From SAR202 cluster bacterium (lineage in GTDB: Bacteria; Chloroflexota; Dehalococcoidia; Lucifugimonadales; Lucifugimonadaceae): a DNA stretch of 52,994 bases. The notes beneath the pieces are model-generated. The model was not told the DNA's origin. It ran no database searches and saw only the letters and a list, made by a program, of their open reading frames with translations. Below are positions 24,314 through 27,718 of this stretch, piece after piece; position 1 is the stretch's first letter; each line of letters begins with the position of its first letter. The position numbers and the translations under genes were made by a program. The stretch covers positions 1 to 52,994 of the forward strand of contig VFGU01000009.1 of the NCBI GenBank assembly GCA_009392285.1, read 5' to 3'.

Positions 24314-25369
24314 TTAATATTTAATTATGGACCTGCCAGCTATTTGTCCATTATGCAATTTATCGCAGGCCTCGTTTATTTGGTTTAATGAAAATGTTTC
24401 ACTTATCATTTCATTTATCGGAAATTTGCCTTTGTGGTACATATCTAAGAAATAAGGAAAATCTTCTTCAGGATATGTTGCGCCAAGGCTACCTCTATAA
24501 GTCTTTTGATAAAATAGAAATTCATTTGCTTCTACCTCAAGATCATTTTTTTCTGGTATTCCAATAAGAACGGATGTTCCACCTTTATTTTCTGCTCCAG
24601 AGCCACCCCTTTTGGTAGCCATAAGAATGTTCCTCATAGTTATTTCTTTTCCTATTGCATCAAACGCATAATCAACACCGCCTTGAGAGATATCCAAGAT
24701 TTCTTCGATAGGATCCGATTTTTTTGCATTTATAACATGTGTTGCACCAAATTTTTTAGAAAATTCTAACTTACTTTCATCTAAATCAACTGCAATCACC
24801 ATTGATGCCTTCATAATTGAAGCCATTGTTACAGCAGAGAGCCCAACCCCGCCTACTCCAAATATTGCAACAGTGTCACCTTCATTTATTTTTGCAGTAT
24901 TTTTAACAGCTCCAGCACCTGTTAAAACAGAGCAGCCCACAATGCAGGATTCTGGAGTAGCATGCTCTTTAGGTATTTTTACAACATATTCATCATCGCA
25001 CATTATAGTTTCTGACCATGTAAAGGTTATTCTGTGATTAAGCGCCTTCTCCATATAACTTACGCCTTTTAAGTCGGGTAAATATCTTCCTTTAATTGGC
25101 GTTCTTGGGACCCATGTGGCTATAACGTAATCACCTTCTTTTACGTATTGGCAATCTGGTCCGACTTTTGTTACAACTCCGGTTGCTTCATGGCCTAGCA
25201 AGAAGGGTCTAGGCAGAGAATTATCATTCATTTGGTGAAGTTGGGAATGGCAAATTCCACTTGAAATAAGTTTTATCTGAACTTGCTTTCCTTCTGGGTC
25301 AGCCAGATCTATTTCATCGATAATTAAATCTTCTTGAGGTTTTAACTGTATAGCTGATAACGCTTTCAT
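24314..25369 (-). CDS. Zinc-type alcohol dehydrogenase (MDR family) without the structural zinc loop
   Basis: This 351-residue medium-chain dehydrogenase has catalytic-zinc ligands C40 (SGICHSQ), H60/E61 (LLGHEATG) and C146 (VGCSVLTGAGAV), and an NAD-binding GVGGVGLSAV motif with an acidic residue after the second strand (VIAVDLDESK). The loop that binds the structural zinc in most relatives (about residues 85-120) contains no cysteines. It resembles class-III/aryl-alcohol dehydrogenases overall. It overlaps cinA by 4 nt and is followed by folC. The substrate is not evident. Confidence 0.9.
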   Translation of the reverse strand: MKALSAIQLKPQEDLIIDEIDLADPEGKQVQIKLISSGICHSQLHQMNDNSLPRPFLLGHEATGVVTKVGPDCQYVKEGDYVIATWVPRTPIKGRYLPDLKGVSYMEKALNHRITFTWSETIMCDDEYVVKIPKEHATPESCIVGCSVLTGAGAVKNTAKINEGDTVAIFGVGGVGLSAVTMASIMKASMVIAVDLDESKLEFSKKFGATHVINAKKSDPIEEILDISQGGVDYAFDAIGKEITMRNILMATKRGGSGAENKGGTSVLIGIPEKNDLEVEANEFLFYQKTYRGSLGATYPEEDFPYFLDMYHKGKFPINEMISETFSLNQINEACDKLHNGQIAGRSIIKY

Positions 25370-26595
25370 TTGGTGATTAAAAATTTCCTAGTTAGACTTA
25401 GTGCATTCATTGTGGCTCTCCTTTTATCAGGTGTTCCAATTCCTGCTGATCTTATATGCTTGGTATCATATCCAGAATCACTAACAATCGCAAAATAACT
25501 TTCGCCCTTCCCTAGATTTTCTACTTTTAAATCACCAGAAATTACTCCAAAATATGACAGACCTAAGTCTGAAGATGATATTTTTTTTATTAGGTATGCT
25601 TGACTGAGAGCAATTTTAATTGGATCCGATTCATCAAATTCAACTTCATATTTATCGAATAAATTTTTTATATTACTGCCTGCCCCAATAGTAATGCCTT
25701 GGTTATATAGATTAGAAGCAGCATTTTGGAAAGCATCTGAGATTGCGCCTCCAGAAATATTTTCTATAGTAGAAATGGTATTGTTACTTGATGAGAGCAG
25801 TCCTCCTATATTTTTTTCTAAAGTCTCTTCGTCTTCTCCAAATACTGCGTCTCCTAGTAGGTCATTTATTTCTTTTTTAACAGGATTAATTAAAAGGTCT
25901 GCTTCTTTTTTATTTTTTGCTTTAGCAGCTATTCTTACGTCTACTTGCCCAGGGTGAGCAAGAACCCCTACTGTAGGATTTGTTGACTTCTCAATAATAT
26001 CTCCTATTAAGTGATCTACATTGCTTTCACCAAGATCAATTGTTTTTAAAACTTTGTAATGAATGATTTCGTTTAGTTCATATTTTTTTATTAAATAGGG
26101 GATTACTTCATTTTCTACAAGCCATTTCATTTCAAATGGCACTCCAGGCAAACATATTATGCATTTACTCCCTTCTTCAACAATAAAAGAAGGAGCGGTC
26201 CCATTTGGGTTTTTTATGATTATTGAGCCTTCAGGGAACATGGCTTGTCTATCATTATTTTTAGTTGGGATAAACCCTCTTTTTCTAAATCTTTCCTCTA
26301 TATCTTTAAGAGATTCTTTATCACTATAAAGTTTTCTTTTAGTCACTTTTGCGACTATATCTCTAGTCAGATCATCTTTAGTGGGTCCGATTCCTCCCGA
26401 AGTGATAACTATGTCTGCTCTCTTAAGAGCATTTTTTAAGATCATTTCCATTCTTTTAGGGTTGTCGCCAACAATTGTCTTAAAAAATAAATTTATTCCA
26501 TTTTCTGCCAATCTTTGAGATATCCATGCAGAATTTGAATCGACAATTTGGCCCAATAGAAGTTCAGATCCAATTGCAACTATTTCAGCATTCAT
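25366..26595 (-). CDS. cinA: CinA-family protein with a degenerate C-terminal PncC domain
   Basis: The 409-residue protein has an intact N-terminal MoCF-like (COG1058) domain: AIGSELLLGQIVDSN (residues 7-21), TSGGIGPTKDDLTRD (65-79), and CLPGVPFEMKWL. The C-terminal half aligns with the nicotinamide-mononucleotide deamidase PncC, but the conserved ESCTGG motif reads ENISGG (278-283) and the following TYSN region reads IGAGSN, so the Ser and Tyr of those motifs are missing. Deamidase activity is therefore doubtful, while the N-terminal ADP-ribose/CoA-pyrophosphatase-like activity may remain. It heads the leftward run to the GT4 gene. TATAAT at 26604-26609 lies 8 nt before the ATG, suggesting a leaderless mRNA. 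Confidence 0.9.
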   Translation of the reverse strand: MNAEIVAIGSELLLGQIVDSNSAWISQRLAENGINLFFKTIVGDNPKRMEMILKNALKRADIVITSGGIGPTKDDLTRDIVAKVTKRKLYSDKESLKDIEERFRKRGFIPTKNNDRQAMFPEGSIIIKNPNGTAPSFIVEEGSKCIICLPGVPFEMKWLVENEVIPYLIKKYELNEIIHYKVLKTIDLGESNVDHLIGDIIEKSTNPTVGVLAHPGQVDVRIAAKAKNKKEADLLINPVKKEINDLLGDAVFGEDEETLEKNIGGLLSSSNNTISTIENISGGAISDAFQNAASNLYNQGITIGAGSNIKNLFDKYEVEFDESDPIKIALSQAYLIKKISSSDLGLSYFGVISGDLKVENLGKGESYFAIVSDSGYDTKHIRSAGIGTPDKRRATMNALSLTRKFLITK

Positions 26596-26609: not shown

Positions 26610-26644
26610 AGTTTTTAATAAAAAAAAGGTAGACTTGATTAATT

Positions 26645-26658
26645 AGAACAAATGTTCT
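26645..26658. promoter_or_regulatory. Palindromic operator 1 (SOS-box-like) before the Cys-cluster HTH gene
   Basis: AGAACAAATGTTCT is a perfect inverted repeat: arms AGAACA and TGTTCT, extendable by one base pair outward. The GAAC-N4-GTTC core has the form of the LexA box of Bacillota and Actinobacteria. It lies just upstream of a TATATT/TATTAT -10 candidate and 22 bp (start to start) from a second copy. Confidence 0.6.
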
Positions 26659-26666
26659 ATATTATT

Positions 26667-26680
26667 AGAACAAAAGTACT
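26667..26680. promoter_or_regulatory. Palindromic operator 2 before the Cys-cluster HTH gene
   Basis: AGAACAAAAGTACT repeats operator 1 with one mismatch in the right arm; the outer bases extend to TTAG...CTAA. The 22-bp spacing puts both sites on the same face of the helix, with the predicted -10 between them and the start codon 7 nt further on. This looks like a repressor site that would cover the promoter. Confidence 0.55.
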
Positions 26681-26687
26681 AATTAAT

Positions 26688-27038
26688 ATGACAAGTTATT
26701 ATAAAAATTTACAAACTCGTGAGTTGACTTCTGACGACTCAAATTATTTTGATACAGGGTGCAAGTATTCTGCTAGTTGCTTAAACTGCCCTTTGCCTAT
26801 TTGTGTATATGATGACCCTGATTTTTTCAAAAATTTAATTAAAAAAAATAGAAACAAGAATATATTCCAAGATTATGAGAGAGGAATGAGCGTGAAAGAT
26901 CTATCATTAAAATATGAGGTTAGTATAAGAACAATTCAGAGAGCACTTAAATTTAGTAAATCTTCAGAATTGCATCTGGATGATAAAAATATTAGTCAAA
27001 AAATATATAAGAAATTTAATTATTCTTCTAATTCATAG
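26688..27038 (+). CDS. Small HTH protein with a four-cysteine cluster (unknown function)
   Basis: The 116-residue protein has four clustered cysteines, C25-x5-C31-x2-C34-x4-C39 (GCKYSASCLNCPLPICVYD), which could bind zinc or an iron-sulfur cluster. A predicted helix-turn-helix follows at about 61-88 (YERGMSVKDLSLKYEVSIRT). I chose ATG 26688 because the frame's earlier ATG at 26652 lies inside the operator palindrome and would be upstream of the predicted +1. I have an unverified impression that similar CLxCPLPxC-HTH proteins are common in Chloroflexota. It stands alone, divergent from cinA, and overlaps the convergent phoU by 19 nt. A redox- or metal-responsive regulator is an inference. Confidence 0.8.
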   Translation: MTSYYKNLQTRELTSDDSNYFDTGCKYSASCLNCPLPICVYDDPDFFKNLIKKNRNKNIFQDYERGMSVKDLSLKYEVSIRTIQRALKFSKSSELHLDDKNISQKIYKKFNYSSNS

Positions 27039-27718
27039 GGAACTATTGCCCCTGAATCTCCTGTAATAACATATATAGTTCTTTCTGCAATGTTATTTGC
27101 TCTGTCTGAAATTCTTTCTAGGTTATGGGCAACCCATATGATATAAGTTCCTTGTTCAACTAATTTTGAATCTCTTGACATTCTTTTTATTAGATCATTT
27201 TGTACCTGATAATTTAGGTAATCTATTTCGTCATCTTGAGAAAAAATTTTCCTTGCAGCTTTTATGGCTTTTTTCTCTTCAGGCACATTAGAAAATAATT
27301 TAATGCTATCTTTCAGCATATTTTTTGCAATTGCTTCCATTTTTGGTATTTTTTCAAATTTAGTTATGAATGGTTTTTTACCTATTTTTAAATTTATTTT
27401 GCATATTCCAGAAAGATAATCTCCAATTCTTTCCAATTCTTGTGACACAAACATGTAAGATGTAAGCTTTCTCATATCTGAAGCTAAAGGAGTTTCGCGT
27501 CTAATAACCTCTATAGAATTATTTTCAATTTCTAATGAGGATTTATTTATTAAATAATCATTTTTAATGACCTTTTTAGATTTTTCTAGATCCTTTTCAT
27601 AAAAAGAACTGAATGTATCCTCAAATACCTCAAGTATCTTTAAGTCTAAGGCGTTAATTTTAGTTTCTATTTCAAGTAAACCTAGATCTAGTGATTTTCT
27701 GCCGTGATAATTTGCCAT
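27020..27718 (-). CDS. phoU: PhoU-family phosphate signalling protein
   Basis: The 232-residue helical protein has the two PhoU repeats with their metal-binding signatures: QELERIGDYLSG in the first half and HNLERISDRANNIAE in the second. PhoU couples the Pst transporter to the PhoR kinase and restrains phosphate uptake. It lies 13 nt after pstB. The protein ends in an acidic tail; its gene overlaps the convergent HTH gene by 19 nt. Confidence 0.94.
   Translation of the reverse strand: MANYHGRKSLDLGLLEIETKINALDLKILEVFEDTFSSFYEKDLEKSKKVIKNDYLINKSSLEIENNSIEVIRRETPLASDMRKLTSYMFVSQELERIGDYLSGICKINLKIGKKPFITKFEKIPKMEAIAKNMLKDSIKLFSNVPEEKKAIKAARKIFSQDDEIDYLNYQVQNDLIKRMSRDSKLVEQGTYIIWVAHNLERISDRANNIAERTIYVITGDSGAIVPYELEE

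Follow-up and report, generated by a model that had tools for sequence, protein, structure and literature searches.

A four-cysteine helix-turn-helix gene under tandem LexA-type boxes in a SAR202 bacterium: probable orphaned control gene of a phage-head gene set of Dehalococcoidia

The gene transfer agents (GTAs) of alphaproteobacteria have dedicated activators, and for RcGTA the direct activator is GafA (PMC6363796, PMC9632790). The gene set described here resembles RcGTA in that the host has kept phage-head genes at more than one locus together with a gene for a putative DNA-binding regulator, and in that its capsid appears to be conserved along the host lineage. It differs from RcGTA in its host class, the unrelated Dehalococcoidia, in the LexA-type boxes that stand directly at the head operons, in its putative regulator, a four-cysteine (four-Cys) helix-turn-helix (HTH) protein, and in being known here from genes alone. 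The C-terminal HTH of this protein bears a weak likeness in sequence and fold to Mor/C of phage Mu (PF08765), below the Pfam threshold, but an N-terminal cysteine cluster takes the place of the Mor dimerisation domain. Within Dehalococcoidia, starvation is reported to activate a siphovirus-like prophage of Dehalococcoides (Waller et al. 2012, cited in PMC3462421); that prophage shares with the present gene set its phage structural genes and its host class, and a response to stress is reported for it.

Among the open-access papers listed for GTAs of Dehalococcoides, Dehalococcoidia or Chloroflexi and for LexA of SAR202 bacteria, none has a title or abstract that describes the head element. LexA boxes of the form GAAC-N4-GTTC are the type of Bacillus and the actinobacteria, and SOS genes under such boxes have in common with our locus a palindromic core laid over a sigma-70 promoter. 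Unlike in those genes, two boxes flank the -10 element in most of the family studied here, the gene that they would control encodes a putatively phage-derived four-Cys HTH protein instead of a repair function, and an asymmetric GTGC variant of the box is common in Dehalococcoidia. The parts of the system, an SOS box and an HTH, are ordinary; what is unusual is that, throughout the class, head-gene loci are coupled to a single box family and a single four-Cys HTH gene, and that the control gene outlasted the particle genes.

The window, a stretch of 52,994 nucleotides, contains one such gene. We think it probable that this is the LexA-controlled, orphaned control gene of a domesticated, GTA-like phage-head set of the class Dehalococcoidia. 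The broader proposition, that the set is an undescribed, vertically inherited GTA-like element with dispersed head loci under LexA, of which the SAR202-type branch kept a repurposed regulator, we regard as evenly balanced. The features of the locus are as follows.

26635 to 26640, plus strand: -35 element TTGATT; a TTGAC-like hexamer stands at the equivalent place in most family loci
26645 to 26658, no strand assigned: box 1, AGAACAAATGTTCT, predicted LexA-type operator in the promoter spacer
26658 to 26663, plus strand: -10 element TATATT, between box 1 and box 2
26667 to 26680, no strand assigned: box 2, AGAACAAAAGTACT, predicted LexA-type operator lying on the probable start site of transcription
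26688 to 27038 (stop codon included), plus strand: four-Cys HTH protein of 116 aa, supported by homologues and by dN/dS against congeners
26760 to 26804, plus strand: cysteine cluster C25-x5-C31-x2-C34-x4-C39, invariant in 50 homologues
26877 to 26966, plus strand: helix-turn-helix, about residues 64-93, from weak Mor/HTH profile matches and an AlphaFold2 model
25366 to 26595, minus strand: cinA, divergent neighbour given as context (Pfam MoCF_biosynth, CinA_KH and CinA)
27020 to 27718, minus strand: phoU, convergent neighbour given as context (Pfam PhoU)

The original prediction had placed two palindromes 22 bp apart around a -10 element, 7 nt before the start of a small protein, and this arrangement is confirmed in each respect. 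The boxes lie 22 bp apart, start to start, and flank the -10 element of a sigma-70-type promoter (TTGATT-N17-TATATT, 26635-26663) whose 17-bp spacer holds box 1; box 2, which has a single mismatch to a palindrome, ends 7 nt before ATG 26688. That ATG is the likeliest start, being the most consistent with relatives, and an upstream in-frame ATG at 26652, the choice of the ORF finder, falls inside box 1. Alignments of the family promoters show a TTGAC-like -35 element, and a TANNNT-like -10 element between the boxes, in most loci, and box 2 of the relatives is often a perfect GAAC-N4-GTTC. The proposal that the boxes share one helix face does not hold as a conserved feature, since their start-to-start spacing varies from 18 to 22 bp across genera, a range that rules out a fixed helix-face spacing.

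The strict motif AGAACN4GTTCT occurs at 2 sites in the 751-kb assembly and the reversed control at 2 as well, so a lone strict site carries no significance in a genome as AT-rich as this one. The tandem arrangement is another matter: GAACN4GTTC pairs with a gap of 4-14 are present in 40 of 100 related genomes, once in each, against 1 genome for the reversed control. Thirty-nine of these 40 genomes belong to the window's family and 38 have the boxes beside the four-Cys gene; in G025 the boxes are at a contig edge, beside cinA, and in the fortieth genome, G082, no four-Cys gene was detected and the site is unrelated. The joint occurrence of tandem boxes and four-Cys gene in 38 family genomes establishes the regulator-operator unit that had been proposed as a conserved one, with its palindromes retained upstream of the orthologues. 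The position of the locus between cinA and phoU is likewise conserved in several genera. The gene does face cinA divergently, as had been pointed out, but the link to cinA amounts to a neighbour relation.

The gene product bears out the description of a small protein with a C-x5-C-x2-C-x4-C pattern and an HTH. Far from varying freely in the family, all four cysteines (C25, C31, C34 and C39) are invariant among 50 aligned homologues, together with G24, L32, P35 and the HTH residues S79, R81 and R85, and the AlphaFold2 model has a pLDDT of about 90 over residues 21-90. A homologue was detected in 69 of the 100 related genomes, and dN/dS values of 0.13-0.14 against three congeners indicate that the window's gene is under purifying selection. 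The Mor/C profile (PF08765) matches the HTH with an E-value of 0.00018 and 21.9 bits, the gathering threshold being 24.9, and the fold likeness of the C-terminal HTH to Mor/C has a Z of 6.5 over 55 residues at an rmsd of 6.2; other HTHs match the protein as well as Mor does. Structure matches cover the HTH part and not the cysteine part, and none has a Foldseek E-value below 0.001, although being missing from the structure match lists is no evidence of absence.

The cysteine cluster is best read as a structural metal site, the metal probably being zinc, with an Fe-S cluster also compatible with the data. WhiB proteins have a different cysteine spacing, and no WhiB-like family was among the Pfam or NCBIfam matches of the four-Cys protein with E ≤ 1; an identity as an Fe-S or WhiB-like sensor was rejected for this want of profile support. 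An identity as a defence gene was likewise rejected, PADLOC having returned no defence-model match for the gene. A tblastn search of known phages and plasmids found no match to the four-Cys gene, and none of the viral contigs matched the single window protein sequence; the viral contigs that carry homologues were found only by way of the alignment or of the portal.

The window genome encodes both recA and lexA, the latter recognised by Pfam LexA_DNA_bind and Peptidase_S24, and 57 of 60 relatives have a lexA gene too. In a scan that accepted single-base core variants such as GTGC or GTAC, 37 of 52 lexA loci had the box core in the 120 bp upstream of the gene, where control windows lead one to expect 0.2. 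Even among genomes without a detected four-Cys gene, 7 of 10 have the box at lexA. G014, which belongs to the window's family, has just two copies of the strict 16-mer TAGAACN4GTKCTA, one at the tandem operator and the other about 36 bp upstream of recA. Because the core stands at lexA and recA, including in genomes with no four-Cys gene detected, LexA is the parsimonious binder and a LexA box is the best reading of the palindromes, which favours the first of the two controls originally suggested. The suggested comparison with recA and lexA promoters gave matches in relatives but no clear box at either promoter in the window's own genus, for which the specificity of LexA is inferred from the relatives.

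Across the class, the phage-head operon that the gene heads outside the window's family reads, in order, a box of type TAGAACATNNGTGCTA, the four-Cys HTH gene, a portal (phrog_64, 1.5e-43), a scaffold-like protein and a major head protein (phrog_212, 3.8e-72), with TerS and TerL either in front of it or as a separate operon. In the single contig of G147, which we take to be Dehalococcoides mccartyi 195, the strict 16-mer occurs exactly twice, once before the four-Cys HTH-portal genes and once before TerS-TerL. Of 42 genomes, 21 yielded the capsid gene. Portal and capsid gene are on separate contigs in G066, G079, G081, G086 and G088, where contig breaks mean that, for some of these genomes, separation is shown and the distance is left unproven. 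In G066, G081 and G086 the separate capsid gene is preceded by the box, in one of the three with one mismatch, and in the single contig of G323 about 13 kb separate the capsid gene from the four-Cys gene.

Among 16 genomes, the distances between capsid proteins correlate with those between LexA proteins (Mantel r 0.65, 0 of 5000 permutations; the correlation is lowered by the lexA chosen for G173, probably a paralogue) and are mostly the smaller of the two. This is the pattern expected of a vertically kept, domesticated element. By eye, no integrase or replication genes were recognised in the 5-15 kb flanks of the head clusters, and one locus, L261, has a recombinase nearby. Taken as genes, the class-level set looks like a domesticated, GTA-like element. 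The portal gene looks truncated in G147 (L127:5472-6383) and interrupted in G073 (L165:15164-16519), so the element appears to be decaying in some lineages. Large secreted proteins with 'LSPSSGxxGTxVTVTG'-like repeats adjoin head clusters in L127, L129, L135, L136, L137 and L275, and a role as cell-surface partner is conceivable for them.

Viral contigs in IMG/VR provided 43 portal loci with enough upstream sequence. The four-Cys gene stands directly before the portal in 35, of which 23 have the box in view, while the contigs of the other 12 stop about 260-380 bp ahead of the portal. Three loci have TerL directly before the portal, with neither four-Cys gene nor box; two of them (L257 and L258) are apparently one phage. 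The third, L270, encodes an integrase, a replication O protein and a portal that is about 70% identical. The remaining 5 fit neither arrangement.

The window's family has a different gene content. The window genome is 56% complete, so the absence of head genes was judged from relatives: no related portal turned up in the family's 51 other genomes outside the genus or in 10 within it, except for one portal match at 28% in G035, and the capsid gene was found in 0 of 9 family genomes tested. In most genera of the family, the tandem boxes are followed first by a gene for a protein of 200-270 aa with no Pfam match and then by the four-Cys gene. In the one case tested it aligns to TerL residues 13-189 (30% identity, E 2e-24), has LLEVVTA where TerL has LLEVDES in the putative Walker B region, and lacks the nuclease half; by this alignment it is a dead TerL ATPase fragment, with a dN/dS of 0.16 (one pair). 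The window's genus has lost this fragment, and its tandem boxes directly precede the four-Cys gene. Genus g6 has in the same position a protein of 172-178 aa of no recognised family (L139:4420-4938, L094:1534-2070), perhaps a further decayed TerL fragment.

In the model we propose, LexA dimers on both boxes would cover the spacer, the -10 element and the start site and so keep the promoter shut, and DNA damage, by way of RecA and LexA self-cleavage, would open it. In relatives, LexA-type boxes would in this way drive the four-Cys HTH gene, portal, scaffold and major capsid genes, and also TerS with TerL. Position and fold make regulation of the head genes the best guess for the four-Cys protein of the ancestral element, most likely as a Mor/C-like activator, its cysteines holding a structural metal that may well be zinc. 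The window's family has lost the head genes, most genera retaining the dead TerL fragment with the HTH gene and the window's genus the HTH gene alone. Because the head genes are gone and purifying selection persists, the protein presumably now serves other targets of the SOS response.

The second control originally suggested, in which the four-Cys protein represses itself through its own palindromes, perhaps as a sensor of metal, redox state or an Fe-S cluster, and LexA plays no part in the genus, would suit a protein with an HTH and invariant cysteines whose operator lies directly before its own gene, in a genus whose lexA and recA have no clear box. We nevertheless consider it unlikely: the same core occurs at lexA and recA, including in genomes that yielded no four-Cys protein, and at TerS-TerL and capsid loci as well, and a LexA-type core at lexA is what LexA autoregulation would be expected to leave. 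Autorepression of this kind is without support and is not needed.

The two other readings that we weighed concern the origin and the use of the gene. An ordinary prophage family acquired many times, with the window gene as functionless debris of a recent prophage, would account for the integrase-bearing temperate phages with portals about 70% identical (L270) and for the visibly decayed clusters of G147 and G073. It is hard to reconcile with temperate-phage contigs that have neither the four-Cys gene nor a box before the portal, with capsid distances that follow those of LexA, and with a window gene that is under purifying selection at a cinA-phoU locus conserved in several genera; we give it little credence. 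Alternatively, damage could induce the dead TerL fragment and the four-Cys HTH protein, which would poison incoming or induced phages at the stage of packaging or late transcription; of this pair the window's genus would retain the HTH half. The fragment does appear to be under purifying selection (dN/dS 0.16 in the one pair), it lacks catalytic residues and the nuclease half, and it stands with the HTH gene downstream of the tandem boxes, but PADLOC finds no match to a defence model and the window's genus has the HTH gene alone with no TerL fragment left; we rate the interference as improbable. A LexA-controlled gene orphaned from a domesticated head set is the reading we prefer.

If this reading is correct, DNA damage would directly switch on a capsid-forming, possibly gene-transferring system throughout a whole class. 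Among its members are the dehalogenating genera of bioremediation, Dehalococcoides and Dehalogenimonas, and how these exchange reductive-dehalogenase genes is unsettled. A domesticated control gene from this system would then be present in the SAR202-type bacteria that abound in the deep ocean. Domesticated head clusters are now filed as viral contigs in metagenomes, and the combination of box, four-Cys HTH gene and portal may serve as a marker that separates them from temperate phages.

Three minor observations were made beside these. Seven genomes of the window's genus share a second strict AGAACN4GTTCT site, which lies between dnaA and fmt, about 20 bp ahead of the start codon of fmt:

L002:1501-1514 (G000 C12:30182-30195): dnaA-fmt strict site; also in L318, L319, L321, L322, L323 and L331

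G010 has a strict box-like site (L342:1501, C1:2142941) upstream of a gene that by eye resembles another terminase large subunit, which may be a chance match. Distant homologues of the four-Cys HTH protein occur in other phage-like contigs, L312, where the gene lies upstream of HNH and terminase-like genes, and L315, part of a 43-kb IMG/VR contig; given these homologues, the ultimate origin of the four-Cys gene may be viral.
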